From contig JALHLU010000010.1 in NCBI GenBank assembly GCA_022844345.1, forward strand, positions 1-64,000: 64,000 nucleotides of DNA. The letters are read 5' to 3'. Both the position numbers and the translations under genes were made by a program. Position 1 is the stretch's first letter. Every line of letters starts with the position of its first letter. Below, piece after piece: positions 12,721 through 54,415 of the stretch. Source of the DNA: Hyphomonadaceae bacterium (GTDB lineage: Bacteria; Pseudomonadota; Alphaproteobacteria; Caulobacterales; Hyphomonadaceae). A model generated the notes under the pieces. It made no database searches and was not told the DNA's origin. It saw only the letters and a program-made list of their open reading frames with translations.

Positions 12721-12721
12721 T

Positions 12722-16263: not shown

Positions 16264-16333
16264 TTATCGACCCTTTTTTATGCTACTGCGTGTTGCAGTT
16301 CAAAGGTCTGCGATTGCGACTAGCTATTCAACC

Positions 16334-16347
16334 GCCATAGATATGGC
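16334..16347. promoter_or_regulatory. palindrome GCCATA-N2-TATGGC before RTX operon
   Basis: Perfect 6-2-6 inverted repeat 71 bases upstream of the RTX start codon. The same pattern with one base changed (CATGGC) occurs twice before the adjacent kinase/regulator operon, at 19172 and 19207. A 6-2-6 or 7-2-7 palindrome is the usual form of site for NarL/FixJ-type regulators, so the regulator encoded at 16428 is the natural candidate to bind it. Confidence 0.65.
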
Positions 16348-16427
16348 ATCGCGTTGTATTAATTAGTTTTTTGTACTCTACGGTTAACGCCAGATAGGAT
16401 CTGCGGCGATCAACGCCAATGCGTCTC

Positions 16428-17144
16428 TCAGACCTTGAGCTGTCCCGATTTCATAGCGGAGTAGACCGCCTCTCCGCGCGAGTTGACAGCCAGCTTGCGA
16501 TAGATCGACTTCACATGGTTGCCGACCGTGAAGGGAGAAATATCCAGCGTCTTTGCGGCCTCCTTGTAGGAGGCTCCCCTTGCGAACAGCTTCAGCAAAT
16601 CAATCTCGCGCGCGGTTAGAAATGACGTGCCTGGCCGAATGGCGTCAGGCTCCGCCGGCGCGGGGCCGCGCAACGACTCCAGCAGATATACGGCCGCTGC
16701 CGGACTTATCGGAGAGCCGCCCGCAAGAGTCGCTTCTATTCCCGCCAGCACCGTTGCTGCGTTTGAGTCCTTCAGAAGATATCCGTCTGCACCGGCGCGA
16801 AGAGCGGCGACAACCGTTTCGCGGTCTCCGAAAGTCGTGACCACGAGCACGCATACGTTTGGTCGCGACTTGATATCCGCGATGATACTCAGTCCGCTTC
16901 CGTCGGGCAGTCCGATATCGAGCAGCACGAGATCTGGCGCCTTGGACAGCTCAGCTCTGGCGCACGACAGACTCCCGGCGACGGCAACAAGCTCGAGCCG
17001 CGCGCAAAGCCTGACGATCTCGCAGAAATGGTTGCTGACGACAGGATCGTCATCGACAATCATGATGCGACTGGGTGGACTCGCACCCGCAGGCTGTTCA
17101 GCCATCGGGTCGCTGGTATCGTTGCTTTCGTAAGCAGTGGTCAT
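16428..17144 (-). CDS. NarL/FixJ-type response regulator (module 1)
   Basis: 238 residues from the ATG at 17144, which overlaps the kinase stop codon (ATGA); the frame extends 12 codons further but coupling favours this start. Receiver domain about 25-140 with acidic pocket DDD (31-33), phosphoacceptor Asp76 in DLVLLDIGLPDGSG, Thr in VVTTFG and Lys in YLLKDS. LuxR-type helix-turn-helix about 170-235 (LTAREIDLLKLFARGASYKEAAKTL, recognition helix TVGNHVKSIYRKL). It would be phosphorylated by the kinase encoded just upstream and bind a palindromic site, probably GCCATA-N2-yATGGC. A paralogue is at 37547-38236. Confidence 0.92.
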   Translation of the reverse strand: MTTAYESNDTSDPMAEQPAGASPPSRIMIVDDDPVVSNHFCEIVRLCARLELVAVAGSLSCARAELSKAPDLVLLDIGLPDGSGLSIIADIKSRPNVCVLVVTTFGDRETVVAALRAGADGYLLKDSNAATVLAGIEATLAGGSPISPAAAVYLLESLRGPAPAEPDAIRPGTSFLTAREIDLLKLFARGASYKEAAKTLDISPFTVGNHVKSIYRKLAVNSRGEAVYSAMKSGQLKV

Positions 17145-19129
17145 TGTGGTGAGACCATCTTCCCGTCCCCGCTCTGCCATGAACCTTTGGCCGCTGTATC
17201 GTGGCCCGGCATCGGCAAGTCGAGCATTACATACATTCCCTTGTCGTCACGTCCCATGTCGAGCACCGCGCCGATCGCCGTTGCACGCGTACGCATATTG
17301 GCAACGCCACGGCCCGTTCCGGCCCCATCACCAGCTGTCCCACTACTGATGGCGCCGTCGTCGCGGACCGTGATCCGGACCCGCTCAGCCTCAGTTGGCT
17401 TCGGCTCGATGACAATCCAGATCGTCTTCCCGCCCGAGTGTTTCAGCGCATTGGTGACCGCCTCTTGAAGGATGCGGAACACATGTAACGTTGGACGCGG
17501 CCCGTACTCTGGAAACTCCGTCCCATAGGAGTTTGACCAGTCCAGCCGGAAGCCCGCGCCTTCAATTCTGGGCGCTACGCGGTCATGAAAAAGGGAAAGC
17601 GCGGCGAACAAGGATTCCCCCACAGAATCCATCGATGCTATCATCAAACGCATTTCGTCGATCACCGACTGAAGGCCTTCAGCCATGCGTTCGGGTCTCG
17701 CTTCACCGCGCCGCGCCGCCAGCAGCATCGACATCAACTGGCTGCCCAGTCCATCGTGCATGTCCCTGAGGATACGCTGCCGCTCATCATCATGCGCCTG
17801 CCGCTTGATGAGTTCCCTCTCCCGATCGTGCGCGTTCAGCAGTTCCTGTTCACGCAGTGCGAGACGTTGCGATAGGACCTGATTGATCTGATCGGCCGAC
17901 CGGAACAGCCTTATGCTGCGCGCGAACACGGCAATGGCCAACGACAGGATCAAAAGTGGATTCGTACGGGTAAAGTAGCCCGTTGTCTCCTGCCACAGAT
18001 ACTCGTTAGCGAACTCAAGCACCGCCAACAGCAGTATGAGAACAAAAATGGCCACTTCCCAGTGGCGGTCATCGCCATGCCTGATCATGTGCCAGGCAAG
18101 GATGCCAAGGGTCAGCGCCATGAAGGCCGTACCGACTATGTTGGTGACTTCGCTGATGAAATCGAAGCCTTCGCCAGGGGGCATGCCCCAGAGACTATAC
18201 GCCGTGAGGACAGCAACTAGTCCGAAGGTTGCGAGGCATCCTGCACCAACCCACCGGATTGGCCTTCCGGTCCAGCAATTCGCAAAATTCAGCCATGCGA
18301 GGGGAACCATCGCAGTGACCATGAAGTAGTAGAAGAGCCGTAGCTCACCGCCCATCGGCGGATCAGACCATGAATAGTGATGCGCCTTCAGAGTCCATGC
18401 CAAGATCAGCAGGAATAGCGCAAAGGCAAAACCCTTCGCCTCAGATTGGACGAATAGGATGAAAGCAAACCCCGCCAAGACAAAGCCTGCAACGATGCAG
18501 CTCATCTCGAACGGCCCCAGCAGGAAGGCCTGCCACGCATAGGCTGTCTCGATCTCGTGGCGCGGGCCGAGCACCGGTTTCATTAGATCGAAATACGGCA
18601 TGGCATTACGGACCATGATGTACTCGACTTGATTTACGCCCGCGCGAACGGCGCTCGCGGGTACAAACTCGATGCGCCTCTCGTTACCATGATAGGTGTT
18701 GTTGGGCAGCGTGATCTTCCCGTGCTGCAACACGATCGATCCGTTGATCCGTACCTGGAAGTTATCGACCGACACCTGGGGGAGAAATCCAAGCCCCTCC
18801 TCCGGCACTTCTGGCAGGGTGAACTGAAACCGGAGACCACGGTAGCCGGGGCCACAGCAGTCCCACCAGCCCGGCCCCTCGATAGGTTTGAAGTCAGCTC
18901 CTGCAAGACCTGCAGCATCTGGGGTCGCAAGTTCCGCAGCCTCATAATTGCTGAGTTCGAAACTCGTGTGAGGACCATGCCCCGGGCCGAACAGGATTGG
19001 ATTCAGCAGCAACCAGAACACCGCCTGCACAACGACGATGGCTAGCAGGAGCCTTGCGACAGCCGGAATCCGGTCAGTCGAAAAGGCCTTGCCCTTCTCC
19101 GCTTCGGCTTTGACGTCTCCCCTCGGCAT
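17141..19129 (-). CDS. sensor histidine kinase with 7TM domain (module 1)
   Basis: 662 residues. A first membrane helix (about 22-44) is followed by a periplasmic domain (about 50-195, beta-rich, with a CC pair at 91-92). Seven or so helices (about 205-405), as in 7TMR-DISM sensors, lead into a coiled linker. The HisKA_3 domain carries phospho-acceptor His458 in ILRDMHDGLGSQL, and a HATPase domain follows (about 545-645, N-box EAVTNALKHSGG, G-box TGRGVANMRTRA). It autophosphorylates and passes phosphate to the coupled NarL-type regulator. The signal is unknown; the periplasmic fold could bind a carbohydrate or envelope ligand. The layout is the same as in the kinase at 38233-40173. Confidence 0.9.
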   Translation of the reverse strand: MPRGDVKAEAEKGKAFSTDRIPAVARLLLAIVVVQAVFWLLLNPILFGPGHGPHTSFELSNYEAAELATPDAAGLAGADFKPIEGPGWWDCCGPGYRGLRFQFTLPEVPEEGLGFLPQVSVDNFQVRINGSIVLQHGKITLPNNTYHGNERRIEFVPASAVRAGVNQVEYIMVRNAMPYFDLMKPVLGPRHEIETAYAWQAFLLGPFEMSCIVAGFVLAGFAFILFVQSEAKGFAFALFLLILAWTLKAHHYSWSDPPMGGELRLFYYFMVTAMVPLAWLNFANCWTGRPIRWVGAGCLATFGLVAVLTAYSLWGMPPGEGFDFISEVTNIVGTAFMALTLGILAWHMIRHGDDRHWEVAIFVLILLLAVLEFANEYLWQETTGYFTRTNPLLILSLAIAVFARSIRLFRSADQINQVLSQRLALREQELLNAHDRERELIKRQAHDDERQRILRDMHDGLGSQLMSMLLAARRGEARPERMAEGLQSVIDEMRLMIASMDSVGESLFAALSLFHDRVAPRIEGAGFRLDWSNSYGTEFPEYGPRPTLHVFRILQEAVTNALKHSGGKTIWIVIEPKPTEAERVRITVRDDGAISSGTAGDGAGTGRGVANMRTRATAIGAVLDMGRDDKGMYVMLDLPMPGHDTAAKGSWQSGDGKMVSPQ

Positions 19130-19171
19130 TCCCAGTCGGGACCTCTAAGCGACAGCCTCCCCCCGGCGGGA

Positions 19172-19185
19172 GCCATATTCATGGC
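19172..19185. promoter_or_regulatory. module-1 palindrome, kinase-proximal copy
   Basis: GCCATA-TT-CATGGC, 43 bases upstream of the kinase start codon. It has one mismatch from perfect symmetry and is flanked by ATT. It shares its pattern with the sites at 16334 and 19207, which suggests autoregulation of the two-component operon. Confidence 0.6.
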
Positions 19186-19206
19186 ATTATCAGGCTGCCG
19201 CCAATA

Positions 19207-19220
19207 GCCATATACATGGC
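19207..19220. promoter_or_regulatory. module-1 palindrome, distal copy
   Basis: GCCATA-TA-CATGGC, centred 35 bases from the copy at 19172. The two half-site arrays make a tandem pair. From here the autotransporter start is 350 bases away, so control of that gene by this copy is possible but not shown. Confidence 0.6.
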
Positions 19221-19506
19221 ATACAAGCCAACCGATCATCTACGAAGCGCTGTCGCTTCGGAACGCTCAGGGCCGACTTAAATTGACGCAAGAGGTTCCG
19301 GCCAACCGCGACTTCCAGATGCTGGTTCGCATGCGTCTGGCGCCACAGTCGGCGCAGCATCAGGTCGAATTCAGGCAGCAGATGCCCCCCGGCCAGAGCC
19401 TTGAGGCAGCCTGCCGCTAGCGCAACGGGGCTCAACAGCCCTGATCGTGTGTGTCCTGCAGCACATACTGCCTTGGACGCTCGCCGAACCATACCTGTGG
19501 CATGCC

Positions 19507-19524
19507 GCGACCGAATTCGGTCGC
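19507..19524. promoter_or_regulatory. 18-bp palindrome before autotransporter 1
   Basis: GCGACCGAATTCGGTCGC is a perfect 18-base palindrome ending 45 bases before the autotransporter start codon. It could be an operator or a hairpin in the 5' leader. It does not match the GCCATA palindromes of the same module. Confidence 0.5.
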
Positions 19525-19569
19525 CTACGCTCCCTTTGATCGCAACGTAGCGCCATCAAGGGGACTCGC

Positions 19570-22500
19570 ATGACAGCCAAGATACACAACAAGTTTGGAC
19601 TTCGCCTGCTTGGGGCGGGTGTGTCGATGATTGCGGTCAGCGCTGGAGCCGAGGCGAATGCGACATGCGTTCTGACCGGCAACGGAACGCTCGCCAGCAT
19701 CGGGCCGAGCTCCGCAGTGAACTGCACAGCCACCACCACGGGGGCGACGCTATCCACGACCTCCAACGCCCAGAGCAATGTCTTCGTCATCATTCAAGCT
19801 GACTCGTTGCTCGACAGCAGCAGCTTAACGATGCAGGGCGGGGGCGATCAGATCATCCTGGCCGGGGCGCCAGCGAATACAGCTGGCCCGGGCGTGATCA
19901 CCGATTCCAACATCACTCTCTCCGGCGCGAACTCCGTACTTTCCCTTCGTTCAAGCGCCTTCCCCGGGGTCGGCGGACAAGTGTCAAATAGCGGATCCCA
20001 AGTCCTCCTGATTTCCGGCGCCAATACACTTGTCGATATCCAGCAGAACGCCCGGATGACTGTAGCTCAGCCGATGCAGTTTACAGGAACCGGCAGTGAG
20101 TTGCGCATCACGGGCGGATCATTGGGCGCTGGCGGAACATATACGGGCTTTCTCGCCGAAGGCGGCGCCGGTGCAAACATATTTGCCCTGCGTGGCGAAC
20201 TCTTGGGCCGGCAGACGGCCGGCATCGTGCAAGCCATTGATGGCGGCGGCGGCGCAGATATCTTCATTTTCGACGGAGCGACGTTGTTTTCCGAGGTCAA
20301 CAACGCCGCCAACACAACATTTTTCTTCAATGGTGGGGCCGGAGCAGACATCCTGGATCTGACGGGCGAAAACACCACTCTCACTAACTTCAACACAACC
20401 GGAATCGAAACCCTCAACAAAACCGGGGCCGGCCGGTTCGATCTCAGGGGAACTCACGACTTTACCGCAATCAACGTCACAGGATCCGGAGCAATCCTCG
20501 GCGTTACAGGAGGAGTTGCTTCGCTCGGAACATCGAACGCAGCAATTGACATCGATGCGGGGGCATTTCTTATCCTCAATCAGAATGCCCCTGGCGCACT
20601 GACACAGAGTCTTTCCGGCGCCGGAACACTCGTCAAGGAAGGGGTTGGAAACCTGACTCTGGGGCAGGCGAACAACGGATTTAGCGGTCGCCTAGACGTC
20701 TCAAGTGGCGCCGCAACCATTATACACTCCGACGCGCTCGGCACCGGATCCATTACTCTCAACGGAATCCTGAATGTCGGCGACATCGAGCTCACAAACA
20801 ACATTACGGGCGGCAGCGGCACGGTCGTCAAATCGGGCGCAGGCGTAACCACCCTCGGGGGCGTAAACCTTCATGGCGACACCGAGATCAATGACGGTCG
20901 CCTGATCGCCACCGGGATCACTGCCCTTGGCCGTGGAAGCGTCACTCTCGCGGCGGGCTCAATCCTCGAGATCGACCAGGCGACCAACGCATCCGGGAAT
21001 GGAATTATCGTCGGCGCAGGTTCGCTTGTGAAATCGGGCTTGGGCGATCTCACGCTCATCAACGCCGGGTGCTGTAACCTCACCGCTTTCAGCGGCGGCA
21101 CATCGATTACTGGCGGGCGTCTGATCCTGGGCGCGTCTTCAAGCGGCGCAGGACTCGGCGCCGGCAACATCGACATCAGCGCCGGGGCCGCATTCCAGCT
21201 CAGCGCGCACACCGTCGCCAACTCGATTACCGGTGCAGGCGCTGTCGAAAAAGGATCGACCGGCGTGGGCGTACTGACCGGAACCAACACGCACACGGGG
21301 GGCACCAATGTGCTCGCCGGCACGCTGCAGGTTGCATCAGCCGCGCCGCTTGGCGCCGGCGTAATCAACATATCGAGCGGGGCCACATTCGATATCGCGA
21401 ACGGATCCTCCATGGTCCTCGCCAACGCAGTCGCGGGCGCGGGAACCTTCGACAAAACCGGCGCTGGCGACCTCATCCTGTCGTCGGCCAACTCGGGACT
21501 TACTGGCACAACGCGCATTTCGGCCGGTCGGATAATCCTCAACGACGGAGGTGCGCTTGGGACCAGCGTCGTCATCAACAATGCGCAGCTGCGATTGGGC
21601 GACATCGCGTTGGCCAATGTCATTTCGGGATCCGGCACCGTTGAGAAGACATCTTCCGGCATCGGCACGATGTCTGGCGCCAACACCTATACTGGCGGGA
21701 CAAGTGTCGCCAATGGCACGCTTCGCGTGACCGGGACAACATCACTTGGAACTGGTGCAGTTAGTGTGGCCGGCGGCGCCTCGTTGAATTTCGACCATGC
21801 CCTCAGTGGCGCCGTCTCTGGCGCAATCACGGGCGCAGGAAACGTCACCAAGACTGGCGCAGGAACAACAACACTTTCGGGCGCGAATACCTTCTCGGGC
21901 GGCCTCAGTATCCAGCAGGGCGTGCTCGAAGTCACCACTGGCGCAGCGCTCAGTACTGGAACGGTTTCCGTCTCCAGCGGAGCAAGCTTGCGCTTCAACA
22001 ACGCGACCGACACACAACTTGCCAATGTGATCAGCGGCGCCGGAGCCATCGTGAAGACGGGCGCAGGAACGACTGAATTCCTCACCACCAACACCTACGC
22101 GGGCGGAACCGATATTCAGCAAGGCGCGATCCGCATCACTGATATCGCCCAACTGGGAACCGGCGCCATCAGCGTTCAGTCGGGTGCGGCGATTGATTTT
22201 TCGGTCTCAGGTACTGCCACGCTGAACCAAACAATTTCCGGCGCGGGACTCATGCGCAAGTCCAACACCGGAGAACTGACCCTGCTCGGAAACACCTTGA
22301 CCGGAGGTGTCGATATCACTCAGGGCCAAGTGCGCGTTACGGAATCAACCGCTCTCGGCTCCGGCGCCGTAACCGCCTCGTCAGGTGCGACGCTTGTCAT
22401 CGACAACACTTCTACCGACTTATTCTCGACGTCGCTGTCTGGCGGAGGCGCGTTCGCCAAGAACGGCGCTGGCGATCTCATCCTGAGCAACCAGAACGAC

Positions 22501-24669
22501 TATTCAGGCGGCACGACCATTTCAGCCGGGCGGATCATCCTCAACAATGGCAGCGCGCTGGGCTCAGGCGCTGTTGTGAACGACGCCGCGCTTCGGATCG
22601 GCAACGTAACTGTGGCCAATGCGATCCTGGGCGCTGGAACGCTGGAGAAAACGTCTTCTGGCCTGGGTGTTGTGTCGGGCGTAAACACCTTTACGGGTGG
22701 AACGACGGTCGCCGACGGCACTCTCCGCGCCGACGGGTCTTCTGCGCTTGGGACTGGCAGCGTCGCAATTGCGTCAGGCGCCACACTCAATCTCAACATC
22801 GCGGGCGCAGGCCAGATGGCAAATATGGTATCAGGCGCCGGCGCACTGGTGAAGTCGGGGACGGGCGATCTTGCACTCAATGGCTCGGCGGCGGCGCGCA
22901 CGGGGCTCACCACCATCTCGGCGGGACGCCTGATTGTAAATCGCAGCGATGCCCTGGGCAGTGGCGCAGTCGCAAACAACGCCTCACTCCGCCTGGGCGA
23001 TATCGTATTTGCAAACGCCGTCAGTGGCGCCGGGTCTGTGGAGAAGACTTCTTCGGGCGTTGGCACGCTGTCTGGCATCAACACACATACGGGAGGCACG
23101 ATCGTATCCGCAGGAACCTTGCGTACCACCGCCTTGTCGGCTCTTGGAACCGGCGCACTGAGTGTCGCAAGCGGCGCGACGTTCGAGTTCGACACGGCGA
23201 CGGATGTAGCCTTTGGCCTCGGTGTCTCTGGCCCAGGTACGTTTCGCAAGCTTGGCCTCGGCGCGTTGACATTCTCAAACCCGGTTTCCATCGGGATGCT
23301 GGACGTCAACAGCGGGCGCGTACGCGTCAGCGCGGCTCTCACTGGAAACGCTGCGGTCGCTTCAGGCGCAACGCTGAATGGCGGCGGGTCTATAAGCGGG
23401 TCACTCGCCAATAGTGGCATTGTGGCTCCCGGCAACTCCATCGGAGTCCTCAGTGTCGGCGGCGACTTCACTCAAACCGCGAGCGGCGTTCTCGAGATCG
23501 AGTTCGACACCGCTGGCGGCCGAATGGACCTCCTGCAGGTGGGTGGACGCGCGACACTCGATGGCACAGTAAGATTTATTTCAACCGACGCGACCGAAGC
23601 ATTCGGCGGCACGTTCCTGAACGCCACTGGCGGAATTTCCGGGCAATTCGACAGCGTCGAAGTTCACGGGGCCACACTGCCAGTAACCGTACTCTATGGA
23701 CCATCGACGAGCACCATCGCGCCCACAGTGCTGTCGGCCCGACCATCGACTTTCAACAGCCAACTTCTTGCCGCCAGCGACACGTCTTTCGCCTTCATCG
23801 AAGGCGTTGCGGGCCGTCGCGATGAAGCTGTCGTCAGGAACGGCCTTTGGTTCGATACCTTCGCCGCCGAGGCGGCGCGAGACGCGCATGGAAGCACGCT
23901 CGGCTATGATCACTCCAGCAACGGATTTGCTATAGGCGGGGCAGCCGAAACCAACGCAGTCGGGTTATCGCTCGGCGGAGCGATCAGCTGGTCCACCTCT
24001 GACATCGATCTCGAAGAGCGGGCCGGCGGCGGCACGCAGGAGAGCCTGATGCTGGCGGCATACCTCTCCTACGAGGCGGGCGCCACGCGCTGGACCGGCG
24101 GACTTTTTTTTGGAGAAACGGACCAGCAAACGGTTCGGAATGTGTCCTTCAACTCCGTCACGACGTCGATTGGCGGAGAGACAAATTCCGGGCTGTTTGG
24201 CGCCTTTGCTTCGCTTGACCAGGAGCTAGGTGGATGGGCGGACTGGACATTGTCGGGACAGCTGAACGTGGACTACCTTCAGCAGACGCAGGATGCGTAT
24301 GTCGAGAGCGGATCGAGCCCGTTGCGTCTGGCGGTTAAGGAGCGTGGGTTCGATAGCTACCAGGTAGAGGCGCTTGTCGAGAGCGAGCGCTCCTTTGCTC
24401 TCGGCAATGGCCAGACAATAACGCCCCGCTTCGGCGTGGGCGTGGGACAGACGATCGCGGGTGGAAGCCGGGTCATTCCCGTCCAGTTCGCAGCCAGCGG
24501 CGCCAGCGTTGCGTTGCAGGGTGATACGCGTGAAGTCACTCAGGCGCTCGCGAGCGCAAGTGTTGCCTGGCAAATGTCGGGGAACGCCGCTTTGACGCTC
24601 GACTACAATGGCCGGTTCGGGGATGCATCGAGCCATCTGGCGCGCCTCGGCGTCGCGTTCCAGTTCTAG
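19570..24669 (+). CDS. autotransporter with beta-strand repeats (module 1)
   Basis: 1699 residues. A signal peptide (about 1-32, ending AEANA) is followed at once by a Cys pair about 23 residues apart (ATCVLTG... AVNCTA). The passenger (about 60-1400) contains some fifteen autotransporter-associated repeats of the form GAGxLxKxGxGxxTLSGxNTxTGGTxVxxGTLxV, predicting a long beta-helix. A C-terminal autotransporter barrel (about 1430-1699) ends in Phe (LGVAFQF). It is exported to the cell surface by type V secretion; adhesin or surface matrix are the usual roles. AGGGG precedes the ATG. The barrel and the linker VLSARPSTFNSQLLAASD are near-identical in style to the 32516-37411 protein, so the two are paralogues. 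Confidence 0.9.
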   Translation: MTAKIHNKFGLRLLGAGVSMIAVSAGAEANATCVLTGNGTLASIGPSSAVNCTATTTGATLSTTSNAQSNVFVIIQADSLLDSSSLTMQGGGDQIILAGAPANTAGPGVITDSNITLSGANSVLSLRSSAFPGVGGQVSNSGSQVLLISGANTLVDIQQNARMTVAQPMQFTGTGSELRITGGSLGAGGTYTGFLAEGGAGANIFALRGELLGRQTAGIVQAIDGGGGADIFIFDGATLFSEVNNAANTTFFFNGGAGADILDLTGENTTLTNFNTTGIETLNKTGAGRFDLRGTHDFTAINVTGSGAILGVTGGVASLGTSNAAIDIDAGAFLILNQNAPGALTQSLSGAGTLVKEGVGNLTLGQANNGFSGRLDVSSGAATIIHSDALGTGSITLNGILNVGDIELTNNITGGSGTVVKSGAGVTTLGGVNLHGDTEINDGRLIATGITALGRGSVTLAAGSILEIDQATNASGNGIIVGAGSLVKSGLGDLTLINAGCCNLTAFSGGTSITGGRLILGASSSGAGLGAGNIDISAGAAFQLSAHTVANSITGAGAVEKGSTGVGVLTGTNTHTGGTNVLAGTLQVASAAPLGAGVINISSGATFDIANGSSMVLANAVAGAGTFDKTGAGDLILSSANSGLTGTTRISAGRIILNDGGALGTSVVINNAQLRLGDIALANVISGSGTVEKTSSGIGTMSGANTYTGGTSVANGTLRVTGTTSLGTGAVSVAGGASLNFDHALSGAVSGAITGAGNVTKTGAGTTTLSGANTFSGGLSIQQGVLEVTTGAALSTGTVSVSSGASLRFNNATDTQLANVISGAGAIVKTGAGTTEFLTTNTYAGGTDIQQGAIRITDIAQLGTGAISVQSGAAIDFSVSGTATLNQTISGAGLMRKSNTGELTLLGNTLTGGVDITQGQVRVTESTALGSGAVTASSGATLVIDNTSTDLFSTSLSGGGAFAKNGAGDLILSNQNDYSGGTTISAGRIILNNGSALGSGAVVNDAALRIGNVTVANAILGAGTLEKTSSGLGVVSGVNTFTGGTTVADGTLRADGSSALGTGSVAIASGATLNLNIAGAGQMANMVSGAGALVKSGTGDLALNGSAAARTGLTTISAGRLIVNRSDALGSGAVANNASLRLGDIVFANAVSGAGSVEKTSSGVGTLSGINTHTGGTIVSAGTLRTTALSALGTGALSVASGATFEFDTATDVAFGLGVSGPGTFRKLGLGALTFSNPVSIGMLDVNSGRVRVSAALTGNAAVASGATLNGGGSISGSLANSGIVAPGNSIGVLSVGGDFTQTASGVLEIEFDTAGGRMDLLQVGGRATLDGTVRFISTDATEAFGGTFLNATGGISGQFDSVEVHGATLPVTVLYGPSTSTIAPTVLSARPSTFNSQLLAASDTSFAFIEGVAGRRDEAVVRNGLWFDTFAAEAARDAHGSTLGYDHSSNGFAIGGAAETNAVGLSLGGAISWSTSDIDLEERAGGGTQESLMLAAYLSYEAGATRWTGGLFFGETDQQTVRNVSFNSVTTSIGGETNSGLFGAFASLDQELGGWADWTLSGQLNVDYLQQTQDAYVESGSSPLRLAVKERGFDSYQVEALVESERSFALGNGQTITPRFGVGVGQTIAGGSRVIPVQFAASGASVALQGDTREVTQALASASVAWQMSGNAALTLDYNGRFGDASSHLARLGVAFQF

Positions 24670-32515: not shown

Positions 32516-35500
32516 CTAGAAGGCAACCTGCACTCCGACGCGGGCTTCGTGGCGTTCGTCGTCGCCGAAGCGTCCTTCATAGCCAGCTGTCAGGCTGGTC
32601 ATTCCGCCCAGCGCCCATTCGAAGCTGGCGCCAGCGAAGGGCGAGGTGTGCTCACTGGCGTCACCCTGCAGGTTTACCGTGGCGTTGCTGGCTGCGAAAC
32701 GCACCGGCAGCACGCGGTCATCCAGCGCTGCGGTGTGACGCACACCAGCTTCTAACTGCAGGCTGGCGGTTGTTGCGCCCAGGGCGAACGACGTGCCGGC
32801 TGTGACCGCCGCCTCAACCCCCATCGTCTCGAAGGTCAGTTCAGGCAACTCCAGGCGCAGCGGGCTGGCGCCGGATTCGGCGTACGCGTCCTGTTTCTGC
32901 GACAGGTAGTTTGCCTGCGCCGCACCGCCGAACGTCCAGAGTCCCGCCTGACCAAACACGGCGTCGCCCGACAAGAATGCCCCGGTGACTACCGAGTCGG
33001 TGTCGCCCGCAACGCTGGTCGAGAAGGAGCTGAAGCTGACATTGCGAACCGTCGACTGATCGATCAAGCCATACAGGATGCCGCCGCCTATCGACGCGCC
33101 ATCGAAGCGATAGCTGGCGAAAGCCGAAGCCAGCATGCCGTCTTGCTGTCCGCCGCCGCCATTGCTGCCAAGCGTGATATCGCCCTGCGACCAGCCCAGC
33201 GAAACCCCTGCGTCGATGCCATCCGTGATCGGCCCGCGCACGCCAACGGAAACGCCGGAGCTGTCATGATCATGTGCCAGCGTCTGTCCCGCTGCATCGC
33301 GTGACCCACTCGCGGTGAACACGTCCACCCAGGCGCCATAGCCCTTACCCGGGCGCAGGGCCTGACGCGCCGCTGCGCCGGCGAACCCCATCATCGCATC
33401 GGACGCGGCGAGCGCCTGGCTGTTGAACGTCGATGGGCGCGCTGTAAGAACCGAAGGCGCCATGATCGAGGCGTTCGGCTGATAGATCACGGACAATGGC
33501 AGTTGCGCGCCGACGGTCTCGATGTTGGCAAACGTACCCGTAACGCCGCCATTTGCGACAAGGAATGTGCCGCCGGAACCTTCAGCGTTGCCCAACGAGA
33601 CAAAGCGCAGCGTGCCGCCGTTTAGCTGAGCCGTGCCCGACACGTTCAGCAGGTCGATCCCACCGGCTGCGTCGAACTCGATCTCGAGGATCGAGTTGGC
33701 GTTGTGCACATAATTGCCTTGAACATTGAGCGTGCCGACCGAGTTACCGGGCGCCACCGTGCCGTTGTTGGTCAGCGTGCCGGTCACCTGCCCCACGCCG
33801 TTCAGGATGCCGCCCGCGCCAACGGTGGCGTTGCCGGTCATCGCTGCGTTCAGCCGCACGCGGCCGGCATCAACCAGCAACGATCCGATCGAGAATGCGC
33901 TGGAGAATGTCAGGTCGCCCGCGCCCGTCTTGCGGAACGTACCCGGACCCGAGAGTGCGTTGCTGAAGGTGAGATTTGCCGTGTTCGCCATTTCGAACGT
34001 GGCGCCCGAAGCAATGCTGACCCCTCCCGTTCCGATCGCCGAGGTGTTCGCCACACGCAGCGTTCCCGCAGAAACAGCCGTGCCGCCTGTGTAGGTGTTC
34101 GCGCCAGTCAGTACGCCGACGCCCGTGCCGGTCTTCGTAACCCCGCCCGCGCCAGTGACGGTGTTAGCCAGCGTGACGTCACCGAGGCCGAGCAACGCGC
34201 CGGAATTGACTGTGACGCCGCCGGTTCCAAGCGCCTGACCATGCATCGCGATGACGGCGCCACCATTGATTGTCGTGCCGCCAGTGTAAGTGTTCGCGGA
34301 TCCGATGGTCACACCGCCCGCACCGGTCTTTAGCAACGCGCCATCCCCCTGGATCAGGTTGGCCAGCGCCGTGTTGGTCGTATTCGACACGTCAAGCACT
34401 GTGCCAGCTGCAAGCGATACCGCGCCCGTGCCCAGCGACTGGCCGCTGGTGACGCGAAGCGTGCCGCCCTGAACCGTCGTCCCGCCCGAATACGTGTTTG
34501 CGCCCGTCAGAGTGCCCATGTTGTTGGAGGTTTTCAGAACTGTTCCAGCGCCCGAGATGTTGTTGGCTACGGTTACGCCGCCAAGGCCCAGGATGCCGGC
34601 CGCGTTGACCAGAATGTCACCCGTGCCAAGACCCTGGCCATTGTTGAGGCCGACACGGCCCTCATTGATCACCGTTCCCCCCGTGTAAGTGTTGGCGTTC
34701 TGGATGATAAGGTCGCCCGCCCCCTCCTTGATCAACTGGCCGTCTCCGGTGATCAGAACCGAACTGACCTCCATGGCAGTGTTGTCAACCGTGAACGAAG
34801 CGCCCTGCGCTGTCGCCACCGGACCTGCGCCGAGCGCTGCGATGGTGTTGACGGTGACATTGCCCCCAACGATGTCGAGACCGCCCGAGAGCGTATTCGC
34901 CAACAGCAGAAGATTGCCTGCGGCCGACTTCCGCAGCATGCCGGCGCCCGAAAGCGCCTGGCTGAAAGTGGCATCCCCCGCAATGCTGAGATCGAGCGCA
35001 GCGTTGAAATCGACGACGATGCCGCCAGAACCAAGACGCGACAGGTCCGACACCCGAAGGGCGCCCCCCATGATGTGGGTGCCCCCGGTGTAGGAGTTGG
35101 CGCCGTCAATGGTGACCGTGGACGTGCCGGTCTTGATGAGACGCCCGTCCCCCACAATGTTGTTGCTGAAAGACGCATCGCCGACGCTGCGCGCAATCTC
35201 CAGCGTGGCTCCGGCGGCGACCTGCAGGCCTGCCGCGGTCCCGATGTTGTCCGTGCCGCCAACGGCGAGTGTGCCGCCATTGATGGCAACAACACCGGCC
35301 AGGCTGTTGTCGCCTGTGAGTTCCGCGCGGCCTGTGCCGTTCTTCACGAAGGCGCCAGCGCCCTGAAGTTGAGCGGCAATGGTCGTGTCCGCGTTGTTGA
35401 CCACCAGAAGAGAGCCGCCAGCCAGAATGTCGACCGGCCCCGAGCCGAGCGCTGTGCCAGCGGCGACCTCGATGGCGCCATCCTCGATGACAATGCCGCC

Positions 35501-37411
35501 CGTATGCGTGTTGACACCTGACAGGGTGGCCGTGTTGTTGGCGGTCTTGATGATCTGGCCAGCGCCAGTGACGCTGTTCGCCAGCGTTACGCCGCCAATG
35601 CCGAGGATGGCGCCCTGCGCGACATTGATGTTGCCCGTGCCGAGACCCTGGCCGTCATTCAGCCCGATGCGACCCGCGAGAATCTGCGTGCCCCCGGTCC
35701 AGGTGTTGGGGCTGGACATGACAATCGTGCCGGAGCCGTTCTTGATGAACTGGCCGGCGCCCGTCATGAGCGGTGTCGAGAAATTCTGGTTGCCGGGGCC
35801 TGAGTAGTCGTACATCAGCGCGCCGCCGGCATTGGCGACCACACCACCGGTTCCCAGTGCATCCAGGTCGGTTACACGCAGGATGCCGCCATTTATCTGC
35901 GTGCCGCCTGTGTAGTCATTGGCCACATTGGCCAGCGTGAGAAGGCCGCTGCCGACCTTCCGAACGGCGCCGTCGCCGGTAACGAGGTTTGCAAAGTCGC
36001 CACCCGCCGCGCCGAAGTCGAGTTCGAGGAAGGCGTCGCTGCCGACATCAACGGCGCCGGTGCCGGCGGCGCCGGCGTTCGTCAGCAGGAGCATGCTGCC
36101 AGAGTTTGTGACGAAGGTGCCACCCGAATAGGTGTTCACGCCGGACAGGGTCGCGCGCGACGTGCTGCCGCCGCCACGGGCGTAGATCTGGCCAGAGCCG
36201 CTGATCTGGTTGCCGATGGTGGAACTGGACAGGAGGATCGTACCGTTCTGGTTTATGACCTGTCCGACGCCGAACGCACTGTCGTTCTCGACTATTGCGG
36301 TGCCGGTCAGCAGGAACGTGCCGCTGAACCCGGAGTTGTCCGCCGTGATCTCAACGGGCGACCCATCCAGCTGAAATTCACCGGTTCCCTGGAGTGTCTG
36401 GCTCAGGGCCGGCGCAAACTGCGATGCGCCGTAACGCAGGGAAGCGCCGTTCGCGATGTTGATCACCGCGTCGGCGGTCATCAGTGAGCCCAGCTCGAAC
36501 TGGCTGACCCGTCCGCTGTTGAGGTCAAAGCGCGTGAACTCTCCTGTGCCGCGGAATTCCAGCGTATCGGTGGCGCCGCCAGAATAGGACAGGCGCTCGA
36601 TTCCCTCGACAGAGAGCGTGAGGTTCTGGGTGCCGAAAATCACCATCGAATCGCTAACGCCGCCGGAATCGATGATCCGGCCCACAGCTCCGCCGGCGGC
36701 GCTGAAGCTCGCGCCGGTATTGACATAGTAGATGTCGTTCCCGCCAGTGTCGGTGACCAGCAGGCCGTCATTGCGGGCGCTCAGCGCCCCACCAAACGCG
36801 TATTGATTGTCTTCAAGGCCGCCGGCGATAATGCCGTTTCCTGTGGTTGCGCCGAAAGCGGAAACCGTCGACCCGTTGGAACTTTCGAACCGCGCACCAT
36901 CGCCGGACAACGAGATCTGCTGTGTCGTCAGCGAGCCGCCAAGGACCGCAATCAGGGAGTTCTGGCCCGAAACGCCCAGGCTGAGGTTAGAACCCGTACC
37001 GTTCGAGAAGAGGACCACACTGCCGTCGCCTGTGCTTCCGAGACTGGAGTTGCTGAGGCTTGCATTGCCAAAAATGTTGATCTGGTTGTTGGTGCTGTCG
37101 AACGAAGTGATTAGCCCCGACGCATTGGCGTTGATGTTGACGACAATGTTGTCCGCGCCTGGGGCATCAACCAGAATCTCGTTGATGCTCGTCCCCGAAC
37201 AGGAAACAGTGGAATTTGAGGTGATCGCGTTCAACGGTACCGGCTGGTTGGCTCCGTCAACTGCAACGCACTGCGCGTTTGCCGCCGGCGCCGCAAGGAT
37301 CGGAAGCAGTGAGCCTGCCGCAAGCAAGCCAAGCTTGGTCGAGAGGCTGAGGCCTTCGCGGGCCGGCTTGCGGGTTTGGGATTTCGGTTGGACGCCACGA
37401 ACGATCGACAT
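32516..37411 (-). CDS. autotransporter with beta-strand repeats (module 2)
   Basis: 1631 residues. An extended signal peptide (about 1-46, ending PAANA) is followed at once by a Cys pair (AQCVAVDG... TVSCSGTS), as in the module-1 protein. The passenger (about 80-1330) has some fifteen repeats of the GAGxLIKxGxGTxTLSGxNTYTGGTxIxxGTLRV type, predicting a beta-helix. The barrel (about 1370-1631) ends VQVAF. AGGGG precedes the ATG. A CCCCTC/GAGGGG palindrome lies 60 bases upstream, shared with the adjacent kinase/regulator operon. It is a surface protein exported by type V secretion; adhesion or biofilm roles are inferred from the family only. Confidence 0.9.
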   Translation of the reverse strand: MSIVRGVQPKSQTRKPAREGLSLSTKLGLLAAGSLLPILAAPAANAQCVAVDGANQPVPLNAITSNSTVSCSGTSINEILVDAPGADNIVVNINANASGLITSFDSTNNQINIFGNASLSNSSLGSTGDGSVVLFSNGTGSNLSLGVSGQNSLIAVLGGSLTTQQISLSGDGARFESSNGSTVSAFGATTGNGIIAGGLEDNQYAFGGALSARNDGLLVTDTGGNDIYYVNTGASFSAAGGAVGRIIDSGGVSDSMVIFGTQNLTLSVEGIERLSYSGGATDTLEFRGTGEFTRFDLNSGRVSQFELGSLMTADAVINIANGASLRYGASQFAPALSQTLQGTGEFQLDGSPVEITADNSGFSGTFLLTGTAIVENDSAFGVGQVINQNGTILLSSSTIGNQISGSGQIYARGGGSTSRATLSGVNTYSGGTFVTNSGSMLLLTNAGAAGTGAVDVGSDAFLELDFGAAGGDFANLVTGDGAVRKVGSGLLTLANVANDYTGGTQINGGILRVTDLDALGTGGVVANAGGALMYDYSGPGNQNFSTPLMTGAGQFIKNGSGTIVMSSPNTWTGGTQILAGRIGLNDGQGLGTGNINVAQGAILGIGGVTLANSVTGAGQIIKTANNTATLSGVNTHTGGIVIEDGAIEVAAGTALGSGPVDILAGGSLLVVNNADTTIAAQLQGAGAFVKNGTGRAELTGDNSLAGVVAINGGTLAVGGTDNIGTAAGLQVAAGATLEIARSVGDASFSNNIVGDGRLIKTGTSTVTIDGANSYTGGTHIMGGALRVSDLSRLGSGGIVVDFNAALDLSIAGDATFSQALSGAGMLRKSAAGNLLLLANTLSGGLDIVGGNVTVNTIAALGAGPVATAQGASFTVDNTAMEVSSVLITGDGQLIKEGAGDLIIQNANTYTGGTVINEGRVGLNNGQGLGTGDILVNAAGILGLGGVTVANNISGAGTVLKTSNNMGTLTGANTYSGGTTVQGGTLRVTSGQSLGTGAVSLAAGTVLDVSNTTNTALANLIQGDGALLKTGAGGVTIGSANTYTGGTTINGGAVIAMHGQALGTGGVTVNSGALLGLGDVTLANTVTGAGGVTKTGTGVGVLTGANTYTGGTAVSAGTLRVANTSAIGTGGVSIASGATFEMANTANLTFSNALSGPGTFRKTGAGDLTFSSAFSIGSLLVDAGRVRLNAAMTGNATVGAGGILNGVGQVTGTLTNNGTVAPGNSVGTLNVQGNYVHNANSILEIEFDAAGGIDLLNVSGTAQLNGGTLRFVSLGNAEGSGGTFLVANGGVTGTFANIETVGAQLPLSVIYQPNASIMAPSVLTARPSTFNSQALAASDAMMGFAGAAARQALRPGKGYGAWVDVFTASGSRDAAGQTLAHDHDSSGVSVGVRGPITDGIDAGVSLGWSQGDITLGSNGGGGQQDGMLASAFASYRFDGASIGGGILYGLIDQSTVRNVSFSSFSTSVAGDTDSVVTGAFLSGDAVFGQAGLWTFGGAAQANYLSQKQDAYAESGASPLRLELPELTFETMGVEAAVTAGTSFALGATTASLQLEAGVRHTAALDDRVLPVRFAASNATVNLQGDASEHTSPFAGASFEWALGGMTSLTAGYEGRFGDDERHEARVGVQVAF

Positions 37412-37471
37412 GCATACCCCTGCGTTGATGCGATGGGGGTTGGCTTGTCACCGCTGCTGGGGGCGACCCAT

Positions 37472-37487
37472 CCCCTCATGCGAGGGG
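37472..37487. promoter_or_regulatory. module-2 palindrome before autotransporter 2
   Basis: CCCCTC-ATGC-GAGGGG, a perfect 6-bp inverted repeat (7 bp counting flanking T and A), 61 bases upstream of the autotransporter start and between it and the regulator gene. It matches the two copies before the kinase operon (40234, 40288). Confidence 0.65.
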
Positions 37488-37546
37488 AGGCGCGCAGGCC
37501 TTGTCAGCAGCGCCTTGATGTCGCGCAAGAATCGGCGAAGGGCCGG

Positions 37547-38236
37547 TCAGCCGCCAGGAGTTTTTCCCAGGTCGATGAGGCGCGCGCGCAACGCTTCATA
37601 GACCGCCTCGCCGCGCGAGTTGACCGAGAGCTTGCGATAGATGCTCTGCAGGTACTCGCCGACTGTAAAATGCGAGATGCCCATCTCCCGCGCGACTTCC
37701 TTCCGCGCCAGCCCGCGCGCTAGGTGCTGCAGCAACTCCTTTTCCCGTGGGCTAAGCGATGGTGCATCCGCCGTCGGCTGCTGGCGCTGCTCTGCGCGGA
37801 CGAAACTGAGAAGGTGGCCTGCGGCCCGCGCGCTGATCGGCGTCTCTCCAGCCAGCGTTTCCCGCACATGCGCGAGCACCTGGTCATCGGGCGTGTCCTT
37901 GAGAAGATAGCCGTCAGCGCCCGCACGAAACGCGCCAAGAACGCTGGCGCGGTCCTCGAACACGCTTATCACCAGCGCCTTTGCCTCGGGGACGCGCACT
38001 CTCAGCGCCGCGATCACTTCAATGCCATGCCCGTCCGGCAGGCCTAGATCGACGAGCGCCAGCTGTGGTGATCGCTCCGCCAGGCGCAGACCCTCGGCAA
38101 CCGAACCTGCTTCGCCCAGAACATCGAAATCGCCCGCCCCAGCCAGAATGCAACTGAGCCGGCGGCGCAGGATCACGTCGTCATCAACGACGATGGCGCT
38201 GAATCGCTGGCGCGCGGAAGCAGAATCCGGGTTCAT
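37547..38236 (-). CDS. NarL/FixJ-type response regulator (module 2)
   Basis: 229 residues. Receiver domain about 12-128 with acidic pocket DDD (18-20), phosphoacceptor Asp63 in LALVDLGLPDGHG, Ser in VISVFE and Lys in YLLKDT. LuxR helix-turn-helix about 160-222 (LSPREKELLQHLARGLARKEVAREM, recognition helix TVGEYLQSIYRKL). Its ATG overlaps the kinase stop (ATGA). It is a paralogue of the regulator at 16428; the segment SIYRKLxVNSRGEAVY is almost identical, while the residues expected to read DNA differ, in line with a different palindrome (CCCCTC-N4-GAGGGG). Confidence 0.92.
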   Translation of the reverse strand: MNPDSASARQRFSAIVVDDDVILRRRLSCILAGAGDFDVLGEAGSVAEGLRLAERSPQLALVDLGLPDGHGIEVIAALRVRVPEAKALVISVFEDRASVLGAFRAGADGYLLKDTPDDQVLAHVRETLAGETPISARAAGHLLSFVRAEQRQQPTADAPSLSPREKELLQHLARGLARKEVAREMGISHFTVGEYLQSIYRKLSVNSRGEAVYEALRARLIDLGKTPGG

Positions 38237-40173
38237 GCGACCTCGCGCCTGATTCCGGCTAGCGATTTTAGCGTCAGCTTCACCACCGTTCCGCCCGCGT
38301 CGCTTGAAATGTCGAGCCGCGCCCCTATCGAGGCGGCGCGCGCCTTCATGTTGGCCAATCCGCGTCCCGTGCTTGCTGCATCCGAAATGCCTGGCCCATT
38401 ATCTCTGACGAGTATCTCGATCTCGCCATCCGCGCCACAGCGGGCCAGCAGCCCCATGCGGCTCGGGCGCGCATGCCGGATCGCGTTTGCAACTGCTTCC
38501 TGTAGTATACGCAGGATCTGCAGCGTTCCACGCGGCCCCAGCACGGGGTCCTCCTCCAGGTCGACGCGAGCATGCAGCTCGGCCTTGATGGCGTTGGTCT
38601 GCGCACGCATGCGATGCTCGAAACCGCGCAGGGCGTCCGCCAGTCCTTCTTCGGCAGAATCAAGCGAATCGACGATCAGGCGGAGATCCGAAATGCTGCT
38701 CTGAAGCGCCGTTTCGAGGCTGTCTGAATCCAGCTGGCGCGCTTTCACCTGTACCGCGAGCCCGAGCAGTTGACCGCCGATGCCGTCATGCATGTCGCGC
38801 ACAATACGCTGGCGCTCCTCCATCAACACGGCGCGCTTGAGCGCATCCTGCTCGCGGCCATGGCTTTCGCGCAGGGCGGCTTCGCGTTCGGCCAGGCGAG
38901 CCGCAAGAATGTGATTGGCGCTGGCGACCGTACGACGCGCCGCGCTTGCCTGCGAGGCCAGTGACAGAACCATCGACAGGCCGAGCAGCAATCCAAACAG
39001 CGGCGCAGCATAGAAGGTCAGCGGCAAGGCGGGATCGAGCGGGGAGATTAGCTTGAGATTGCTGTCCACAGTGTCGATCATGGTCGCCGTCAGGCAGATG
39101 GCGAGGATCAGGCGCTCCATCCACCTTTCGCCGCGATTCCGGGCGGTCGCTGCCGCTAGTGCGATCATCGCGCCGATCAGCAGCACGGGTGCGACCAGCA
39201 GCTCCACCTCCTCCAAGAAGGCAAACCAGCCGCGTGGTCCGGAATCGAACAGCCCCTGGGTGAGCGGCATGACGATGCAGAGCACTTGCACCGCGCCCCA
39301 GCCGGTCCATAGCCAGCGATACATGGCGCGTGGCGCGCCCACGTCACGCATCACGAACCAGACGGAGGCGAAGACCACGCCGAAAGTGAGCGTCCAGTAC
39401 ATCATGAAGTTGACGAGCCGCGATACCGGAAACGGCGGCATGAACGCCACCCAGTAGGTCTTCAGCGCCAGCAGCACGAGCATGACCACCAGCGCACGCA
39501 TGCGCGGGCGATCCTCCCTCGGCCAGTTGACAACAAGGCACAGCAGCGCGGTGAACAAGAGGATCGCGACGCCAGCCAGCGGCAAATCGATGTTGAACAC
39601 ATTCCCCCACCTGTAGGCCGCCGCGAGCTGCTCGGCAGGGCCGACGGCGAACTCCGGGAAGACGTGATTGAACCCCTCATTCTCGACCAGCGCCGTGATC
39701 TCGTTGGCGCCCCGCTGGATGGCCGCTTTCGGCAGCACGTAGAACACCGGCTCCCATCCCGCGCCGCCGCTGAAGCTGTCGAGGGGCACATTGGGCTGGA
39801 CGATCACGTCATTGACTCGGATCTCCTGGATCGACCGGCTGACTGCGAGATAGAGCGCAAGCTCCTGCGACGGATCATCGATGTCGAAGGGAATCCTGAA
39901 ATTGGCGCGCGCGGAGTCTTCGCGGATGCTGGTCTTGTAGTTGGGGTCGGGCTGGTAGGGCGCCTGGAATGTCCGGCCATCGGCCAGCGCTAGACCCTGC
40001 TCGTCCACGACCGTAAATTCGACAAATGGCCGTGCGTCCATGCCAGGCGGTCGCGCCGCACGCTCGGCCAGGGTCAAGGCGATCCAGAAAACCGCCTGCG
40101 CCATCAGCAGCAACAGGATAACCTGCGCCAAGATTTTCCAGCCCCATCGTCCGCGGGCGCGTTCCGGCTGCAT
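38233..40173 (-). CDS. sensor histidine kinase with 7TM domain (module 2)
   Basis: 646 residues: first membrane helix (about 13-36), periplasmic domain (about 45-195, beta-rich with IQEIRVNDVIVQPNVPLD), about seven helices (195-410) and a coiled linker. The HisKA_3 domain has phospho-acceptor His462 (RIVRDMHDGIGGQLLGL). The HATPase domain (about 535-640) has EAVANAIRHARP, DNGPGISD and GRGLANMKARA. It has the same plan as the kinase at 17141-19129. It is transcribed first, then the regulator by ATGA overlap. It likely senses an envelope signal and controls the neighbouring autotransporter. Confidence 0.9.
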   Translation of the reverse strand: MQPERARGRWGWKILAQVILLLLMAQAVFWIALTLAERAARPPGMDARPFVEFTVVDEQGLALADGRTFQAPYQPDPNYKTSIREDSARANFRIPFDIDDPSQELALYLAVSRSIQEIRVNDVIVQPNVPLDSFSGGAGWEPVFYVLPKAAIQRGANEITALVENEGFNHVFPEFAVGPAEQLAAAYRWGNVFNIDLPLAGVAILLFTALLCLVVNWPREDRPRMRALVVMLVLLALKTYWVAFMPPFPVSRLVNFMMYWTLTFGVVFASVWFVMRDVGAPRAMYRWLWTGWGAVQVLCIVMPLTQGLFDSGPRGWFAFLEEVELLVAPVLLIGAMIALAAATARNRGERWMERLILAICLTATMIDTVDSNLKLISPLDPALPLTFYAAPLFGLLLGLSMVLSLASQASAARRTVASANHILAARLAEREAALRESHGREQDALKRAVLMEERQRIVRDMHDGIGGQLLGLAVQVKARQLDSDSLETALQSSISDLRLIVDSLDSAEEGLADALRGFEHRMRAQTNAIKAELHARVDLEEDPVLGPRGTLQILRILQEAVANAIRHARPSRMGLLARCGADGEIEILVRDNGPGISDAASTGRGLANMKARAASIGARLDISSDAGGTVVKLTLKSLAGIRREVA

Positions 40174-40233
40174 GCGATTTGTCCCCGGCGTCCGAGATGT
40201 CTGCGCGCGCCGCCGCGCAAAACAGACCCCTCC

Positions 40234-40249
40234 CCCCTCTTACAAGGGG
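40234..40249. promoter_or_regulatory. module-2 palindrome, kinase-proximal copy
   Basis: CCCCTC-TTAC-AAGGGG, one mismatch from perfect symmetry, 61 bases upstream of the kinase start. That is the same distance as the copy before autotransporter 2. Confidence 0.6.
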
Positions 40250-40287
40250 TTCCCCAGCGATTCTAGGAGCCCAATGCGCCTGACGAC

Positions 40288-40303
40288 CCCCTCGTTCGAG
40301 GGG
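40288..40303. promoter_or_regulatory. module-2 palindrome, distal copy
   Basis: CCCCTCGTTCGAGGGG is a perfect 7-2-7 palindrome, centred 54 bases (about five helical turns) from the copy at 40234. This is the best match of the three and gives the consensus CCCCTCn-N2-nGAGGGG. Confidence 0.65.
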
Positions 40304-40447
40304 ATGGACCAGCGCGAGAGGGAGCTGCCGGTCGGACGCGGCGCCGTGTGTGGAAAATTCGTATCATTGGCTTCTTCGGCAGTCCAACGAACGCCGCCTA
40401 CACGGATACCCGTTCGTCCAGGTCAAGGAGCACCTCCCCAAACGATT

Positions 40448-40474
40448 TATATTGACACTCGTTATGTCAATATA
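40448..40474. promoter_or_regulatory. 27-bp operator, copy A (dehalogenase)
   Basis: TATATTGACA-N7-TGTCAATATA: perfect 10-bp arms. Core TTGACACTC-N4-TGTCA. It lies 65 bases upstream of the dehalogenase start codon. Three further copies occur at 42684, 46513 and 54389. Size and symmetry fit a TetR-family operator, and the cluster encodes one TetR protein. Confidence 0.75.
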
Positions 40475-42683: not shown

Positions 42684-42710
42684 TAAATTGACATTCCAGG
42701 TGTCATAATA
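42684..42710. promoter_or_regulatory. 27-bp operator, copy B (DJ-1 / sulfatase 1)
   Basis: Core TTGACATTC-N4-TGTCA with arms TAAATTGACA and TGTCATAATA. It sits in the 74-base divergent gap, 12 bases from the DJ-1-like start and 37 from the sulfatase start, and so can control both directions. Confidence 0.7.
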
Positions 42711-46512: not shown

Positions 46513-46539
46513 GCTTTTGACACTCTAACTGCCATTTGA
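46513..46539. promoter_or_regulatory. 27-bp operator, copy C (GST-like / sulfatase 2)
   Basis: Core TTGACACTC-N4-TGCCA, with flanks GCTT before and TTTGA after. It lies between the enoyl-CoA hydratase stop (46476) and the GST-like start (46589), implying an internal promoter. It matches copy D at 54389 in 22 of 27 positions. Confidence 0.7.
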
Positions 46540-54388: not shown

Positions 54389-54415
54389 GCTATTGGCACT
54401 CCTACTGCCATTTCA
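54389..54415. promoter_or_regulatory. 27-bp operator, copy D (leftward operon)
   Basis: Core TTGGCACTC-N4-TGCCA, flanked by GCTA and TTTCA. It lies about 131 bases upstream of the first gene of the operon that includes the TetR gene. It is a close match to copy C (22 of 27). Confidence 0.7.

Follow-up and report, generated by a model that had tools for sequence, protein, structure and literature searches.

A conserved palindrome set as the predicted operators of a NarL/FixJ-type two-component system, apparently not described before, in a Hyphomonadaceae bacterium

The NarX-NarL, DesK-DesR, and VraS-VraR systems each combine a HisKA_3/HATPase_c kinase with a response regulator that carries a receiver and a GerE output domain, and their DNA sites are dyad-symmetric. 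The NarL operator proper consists of inverted heptamers (TACYYMT) with 2 bp between them, and ComA, which belongs to the NarL/FixJ family and is paired with a HisKA_3 kinase, has a wide regulon. Described sites include the NarL 7-2-7 site TACCCCT-AA-AGGGGTA (PMC4549865), the ComA box, for which the consensus TTGCGG-N4-CCGCAA is quoted in PMC3793909, and the DosR/DevR box TTSGGGACTWWAGTCCCSAA (PMC2275270). The DNA analyzed here, referred to as the window, comprises 64,000 nucleotides of a Hyphomonadaceae bacterium (GCA_022844345.1, contig JALHLU010000010.1, positions 1 to 64,000) and harbors a two-component system, HK2-RR2, that shares the domain construction of the three systems named above and for which the predicted sites are likewise dyad-symmetric. 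HK2 differs from the NarX/DesK/VraS-type kinases in having its own predicted β-sandwich sensor and a putative multi-span region, and the regulon of RR2 appears to be local. No published report of this two-component system was found in literature searches, and the palindrome pattern occurred in none of the searched papers. The palindromes of this locus form a real, conserved set of predicted operators of this system, which appears not to have been described before.

The genes HK2, RR2, and AT2 lie in this order on the minus strand, and HK2 and RR2 overlap by ATGA (gene starts are our own readings of the open reading frames). RR2 (37547..38236, 229 aa) contained a receiver (Response_reg, 15-124) and a GerE/LuxR helix-turn-helix (GerE, 160-213), both above the Pfam cut-offs, with the recognition helix SHFTVGEYLQSIYRK. 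A profile built from RR2 and related regulators matched NarL (1a04) over its full length (positions 10-214, E 5.5e-45), and the best solved relatives were NarL, DevR, VraR, and DesR. The phospho-acceptor aspartate D62 was invariant across a nine-member alignment. On the basis of its domain order, the conserved D62, and the full-length NarL match, RR2 is classified as a NarL/FixJ response regulator, and it is the predicted operator binder. AT2 (32516..37411, 1631 aa), the predicted target gene, encodes a large surface protein with eight PATR repeats (PF12951, E 3.5e-60), which would place it among the PATR-repeat autotransporters. The C-terminal β-barrel PF03797 was not reported in AT2 at E 1e-3, and was detected in its homologue in G213 (E 1.2e-34).

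HK2 (38233..40173, minus strand, 646 aa) is a membrane sensor kinase of the HisKA_3 (DesK) type. It contained a HisKA_3 dimerization domain with its histidine and a HATPase_c domain with an N box, H462 and N563 were invariant in 19 homologues, and its kinase core matched DesK and VraS structurally. The structural model (mean pLDDT 81.5) consisted of an N-terminal helix, an all-β periplasmic domain (residues 40-182), another six long helices preceding the DHp region, which are predicted to be membrane spans, and the DesK/VraS-like core. The β domain and the six helices of the model would be compatible with a 7TMR-DISM layout; DISM models in Pfam gave no match to HK2 up to E 0.1. When folded alone, the β domain reached a pLDDT of 88, and it resembled the accessory domains of GH2 glycosidases with modest scores (E ~2e-4, TM ~0.55). 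This modeled GH2-accessory-like β-sandwich gives a weak hint of a sugar-like ligand.

Palindromes of the form CCCCTC-N4-GAGGGG were found on the minus strand at the three positions given by a sequence-only reading of this DNA (37472, 40234, and 40288), although the copy at 40234 carries one mismatch. Palindrome 1 (37472..37487, CCCCTCATGCGAGGGG, no mismatches), which reads CCCCTCGCATGAGGGG on the coding strand and lies in an extended 20-bp dyad at 37470-37489, is the predicted operator of AT2. Palindrome 2 (40234..40249, CCCCTCTTACAAGGGG; coding-strand reading CCCCTTGTAAGAGGGG, one mismatch to the dyad) and palindrome 3 (40288..40303, CCCCTCGTTCGAGGGG, no mismatches) lie 54 bp apart before HK2, and are the predicted proximal and distal operators, respectively, of the HK2-RR2 operon. 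Palindrome 3 is a perfect CCCCTCGAACGAGGGG (CCCCTCG-TT-CGAGGGG; extended dyad 40286-40305). The CCCCT half-sites of the window palindromes are similar to those of the NarL site, but CCCC and GGGG are 4 bp apart in TACCCCTAAAGGGGTA and 8 bp apart here, so that the register differs; the window palindromes were therefore rejected as NarL 7-2-7 operators proper. The 6-4-6 layout and the length of 16 bp are those of the ComA box, whereas the half-site sequence, organism, targets, and input differ. The DosR/DevR box, which is bound by a regulator of the same family, is a 20-bp dyad with a 2-bp center like the aligned consensus AYCCCCTCRNNYGAGGGGRT, and differs from it in sequence, targets, and signal.

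The nearest relative, G005, belongs to the same genus and has the gene order of this module, with RR2 86% and HK2 78% identical. All three sites recur there at matching places, as a pair in front of the kinase gene and a single copy in front of the autotransporter gene. The autotransporter palindrome is identical in both genomes, the equivalent of the proximal kinase operator is CCCCTTGTATGAGGGG, and the kinase-promoter pair is exactly 54 bp apart, as in the window. In alignments of the two genomes, 42/48 palindrome columns were identical vs. 284/462 of the other aligned columns; the three sites were thus retained although most of the flanking sequence had diverged.

A survey set of 82 distinct response regulator homologues, drawn from the order and from named genomes, was used to build a tree. 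RR2 fell into a clade of ten members (SH-aLRT 99) with the helix EYxQ, which spans Caulobacterales and Erythrobacteraceae and includes the window, G005, G181, G213, two G407 modules, Asticcacaulis sp. AC460, Erythrobacter ramosus, and two Porphyrobacter genomes. A palindrome of this kind was present upstream of an adjacent gene in all ten members, whether this gene encoded a PATR/autotransporter, an RTX, or a DUF1176 protein. By one set rule (no more than one mismatch, inside 7 kb), and with the loci L109, L115, and L228 set aside by judgement of their sequence context, the palindrome lay beside 9/10 clade members vs. 2/72 other homologues (Fisher P 2e-9, in a test that ignores shared descent). 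The chance of 9/10 arising from background density is ~1e-12. In AC460, the remaining member, CCCCCCAATCCGGGGG takes the place of the CCCCTCAATCTAGGGG of G407; this double change preserves the palindrome. Alignment of 19 sites (16 from the RR2 clade and three from G270 and G021) yielded the 20-bp dyad AYCCCCTCRNNYGAGGGGRT, in which the flank preferences continue the symmetry outside the palindrome itself, as a protein that binds as a dimer would be expected to require.

The two homologues outside the clade that passed the rule, G270 (L108, helix AEYLS) and G021 (L028, helix ADHMR), bear the same palindrome; the link between helix and operator is therefore not one of a single residue. A rule by which the helix glutamate specifies the site was rejected, since the corresponding residue of G021 is an aspartate and the site is probably not used by the AEH regulators. 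The palindromes of the three AEH-helix loci were not counted as operators, since their position between convergent genes and their A and T flanks suggest terminators. At these loci of three related genomes (L109 9583-9598, L115 11437-11452, and L228 2807-2822), AAAAAAATACCCCCTCACATGAGGGGGTATT between convergent genes resembles a two-way terminator, and the regulator-kinase pair follows genes that resemble, judged by sequence alone, Tad pilus genes.

The distance from the palindrome to the start of the adjacent gene, which usually encodes a secreted repeat protein, was 56-66 bp in the survey. It was 58-60 bp at the autotransporter genes of the window, G005, G181, and G213 (58 bp in G005), 61-66 bp at the RTX protein genes of G407 and AC460, and 56 bp at the DUF1176 gene of Erythrobacteraceae, counted from a GTG start. 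In G270 and G021, the palindrome lies 59 and 66 bp, respectively, before the regulator gene itself. In the window, the coordinate differences (37472-37411 and 40234-40173) are both 61, which corresponds to 60 bases between palindrome and start codon at AT2 and HK2 alike. The equality of these two distances had been taken as an argument for function. This argument holds at the surface-protein genes, where about 56-66 bp is kept in relatives, but not at the kinase genes, where the distances in relatives vary (32, 46, and 35 bp). The conserved feature at the kinase promoter in the nearest relative is instead the 54-bp distance between the two sites, and the G005 proximal site lies 32 bp from the kinase start vs. 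60 bp in the window. Second sites in G181 (14913) and G213 (15294) were rejected, as they overlap the ribosome-binding region and may be just Shine-Dalgarno sequence.

Chance GC-rich palindromes in a GC-rich genome have a negligible probability of accounting for these sites. CCCCT-N6-AGGGG occurs six times in the 4,185,665-base genome, and three of these copies lie in a 2.8-kb stretch of this module, a clustering with P ~1e-9 against the density of the other three copies as background. The place, spacing, and sequence of the palindromes are also conserved in relatives. A loose scan of the window (at most three mismatches) showed no excess, with 38 palindromes found vs. 46 expected from shuffled sequence, which would fit coincidence, and degenerate matches were for this reason discarded as evidence; lone exact copies also exist elsewhere, such as that on contig C11 at position 172082, which is absent from the locus of the G005 orthologue. 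Coincidence is thus refuted for the set of three, while any single site could still be idle. It is highly improbable that the palindromes act in RNA, as leader or intergenic terminator or attenuator hairpins, rather than as protein-binding DNA. A GC-rich stem of 6 bp could form, the leader region with the two kinase sites folded better than shuffles (z -2.96), and the palindrome of L109, L115, and L228 does resemble a terminator in its position between convergent genes and its A/T flanks. However, none of the three window sites precedes a T run and no terminator-like site was found, the autotransporter leader folded no better than shuffles (z -0.16), and the stem is broken in several conserved sites (C.A in G181 and G407, A.A in G270). 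The tracking of the palindrome with the regulator clade and the symmetric flanks outside the stem suit a protein dimer.

A protein dimer could in principle be that of a different transcription factor encoded elsewhere, given that binding by RR2 is itself a prediction; this alternative is very unlikely. The palindrome accompanies the RR2-type module between genomes, across orders and target genes, no exact copy lies outside the module in most of these genomes, and the change in the helix of the paralogue RR1 is accompanied by a change in the operator. The regulator at 37547 had been named as the binder in the sequence-only reading, and it is supported as the predicted binder by the joint presence of palindrome and regulator in different genomes and families and in a further order, and by the tracking of the palindrome with the recognition helix.

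We therefore hold it to be very probable that the palindromes are operators of RR2, through which a dimer of phosphorylated RR2 would control AT2 and autoregulate HK2-RR2. Phosphorylated RR2 would bind the AYCCCCTCRNNYGAGGGGRT dyad before AT2 and also the pair of dyads, 54 bp apart, before the HK2-RR2 operon, and HK2 would thereby set both AT2 output and its own level. The proposed link between the surface protein and the kinase signal would follow if RR2 binds the palindromes. The binding, its dependence on phosphorylation, its sign, and the stimulus are the parts of this model that we infer. Activation of AT2 appears somewhat likelier than repression, since a leader of ~25-30 nt would put the dyad center, located ~68 bp ahead of the start codon, near -40. 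A scan for sigma-70-like promoters at AT2 and HK2 found nothing, so that the choice between activation and repression is a guess. A less probable variant of this model is that RR2 represses, and that the surface protein is released from repression, or placed under it, by the kinase signal. In G005, only 32 bp separate the end of the proximal kinase site from the start codon, and with a leader of usual length this site would overlap a promoter. NarL acts as a repressor at sites near the start and as an activator at upstream ones (PMC4549865). On the other hand, provided that leaders are short, the near-constant 56-66 bp in front of surface-protein genes agrees with a position near -40, as is typical of activators.

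The RR2 regulon looks local because no conserved distal target was found. Further targets in the genome had been expected to define the stimulus, and the genome scan, made by pattern searches, revealed no more conserved ones. The near-exact sites C5:67121, C7:148272, and C11:172082 were not supported as a distal regulon, and no site like the exact one at C11:172082 (G000) was present upstream of the orthologous gene in G005. Both exact palindromes of the G213 genome lie in the module and none elsewhere, the only exact palindrome of G181 is in the module, and 2/3 near-exact palindromes of G407 lie inside the module. The G270 genome (L108) contained many copies of CCCCTCGGGGGAGGGC, which make up most of its 26 matches at one mismatch or fewer and apparently represent an unrelated dispersed repeat.

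The window also contained a sister module (module 1, 11380-24669), in which the pair RR1/HK1 is accompanied by genes for an RTX protein and a PATR protein and by secretion genes of the ABC and HlyD types. On the minus strand, it harbored a 596-aa RTX calcium-binding repeat protein (14473..16263, Pfam HemolysinCabind), the palindrome CGCCATAGATATGGCA (16333..16348) 69 bp before the RTX gene, RR1 (16428..17180), a response regulator paralogous to RR2 with the helix SPFTVGNHVKSIYRK (GNHVK), HK1 (17141..19129), a sensor kinase paralogous to HK2, and the palindromes AGCCATATTCATGGCA (19171..19186) and AGCCATATACATGGCA (19206..19221), 41 and 76 bp before HK1, respectively. AT1 (19570..24669, 1699 aa, Pfam PATR) is encoded on the plus strand. 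The module-1 palindromes have the form GCCAT-N4-ATGGC and occupy places equivalent to those of module 2. Since module 1 has its own palindrome together with another helix, the operator seems to diversify along with the recognition helix.

In L246, from a Hellea genome (one mismatch), and in L247, the kinase is preceded by variants of GCCAT-N4-ATGGC. Different palindromes adjoin regulators with other helices, namely CCACAT-N4-ATGTGG in L250 and L252 (REYTK) and CCCCAT-N4-ATGGGG in L131 and L249 (PSYIK/GDHVK); these last cases stem from a search for repeated palindromes and comprise few sequences, and the pattern is offered for testing. Azospirillum sp. B506 (L131 3231-3274) contained two CCCCAT-N4-ATGGGG palindromes, 28 bp apart, which precede the regulator gene by 140 and 112 bp. 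In the two modules of the window, EYxQ goes with CCCCTC-N4-GAGGGG and GNHVK with GCCAT-N4-ATGGC. We tentatively propose, at slightly short of even confidence, that these modules are part of a broad family in Alphaproteobacteria, made up of paralogous kinase-regulator modules that are insulated from one another and of which each controls a single giant secreted protein next to it, and in which the helix and a fixed-layout palindrome of 16-20 bp diversify together. If true, such a family would be a natural record of specificity change in NarL-type regulators after duplication, with two modules side by side here.

The RR2/HK2 system is ordinary in kind, well supported, and useful because two sister modules with different palindromes lie in one window. 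The analysis provides a testable DNA site, regulator, and target for this system, and suggests that each giant secreted repeat protein in these bacteria is under the control of its own adjacent sensor. The two modules, with related regulators and different palindromes, offer a ready comparison of how paralogous NarL-type regulators separate their targets. An unrelated inverted repeat, TTGACA-N-TC-N4-TGTCA, was also found in the window, with exact copies at 40452-40469 before a hydrolase gene (40539) and at 42688-42705 before a sulfatase gene (42747), a near match at 46517-46534 (one mismatch), and a weaker one at 54393-54410 (two mismatches). This repeat resembles the operator of another regulator, perhaps of the TetR type.
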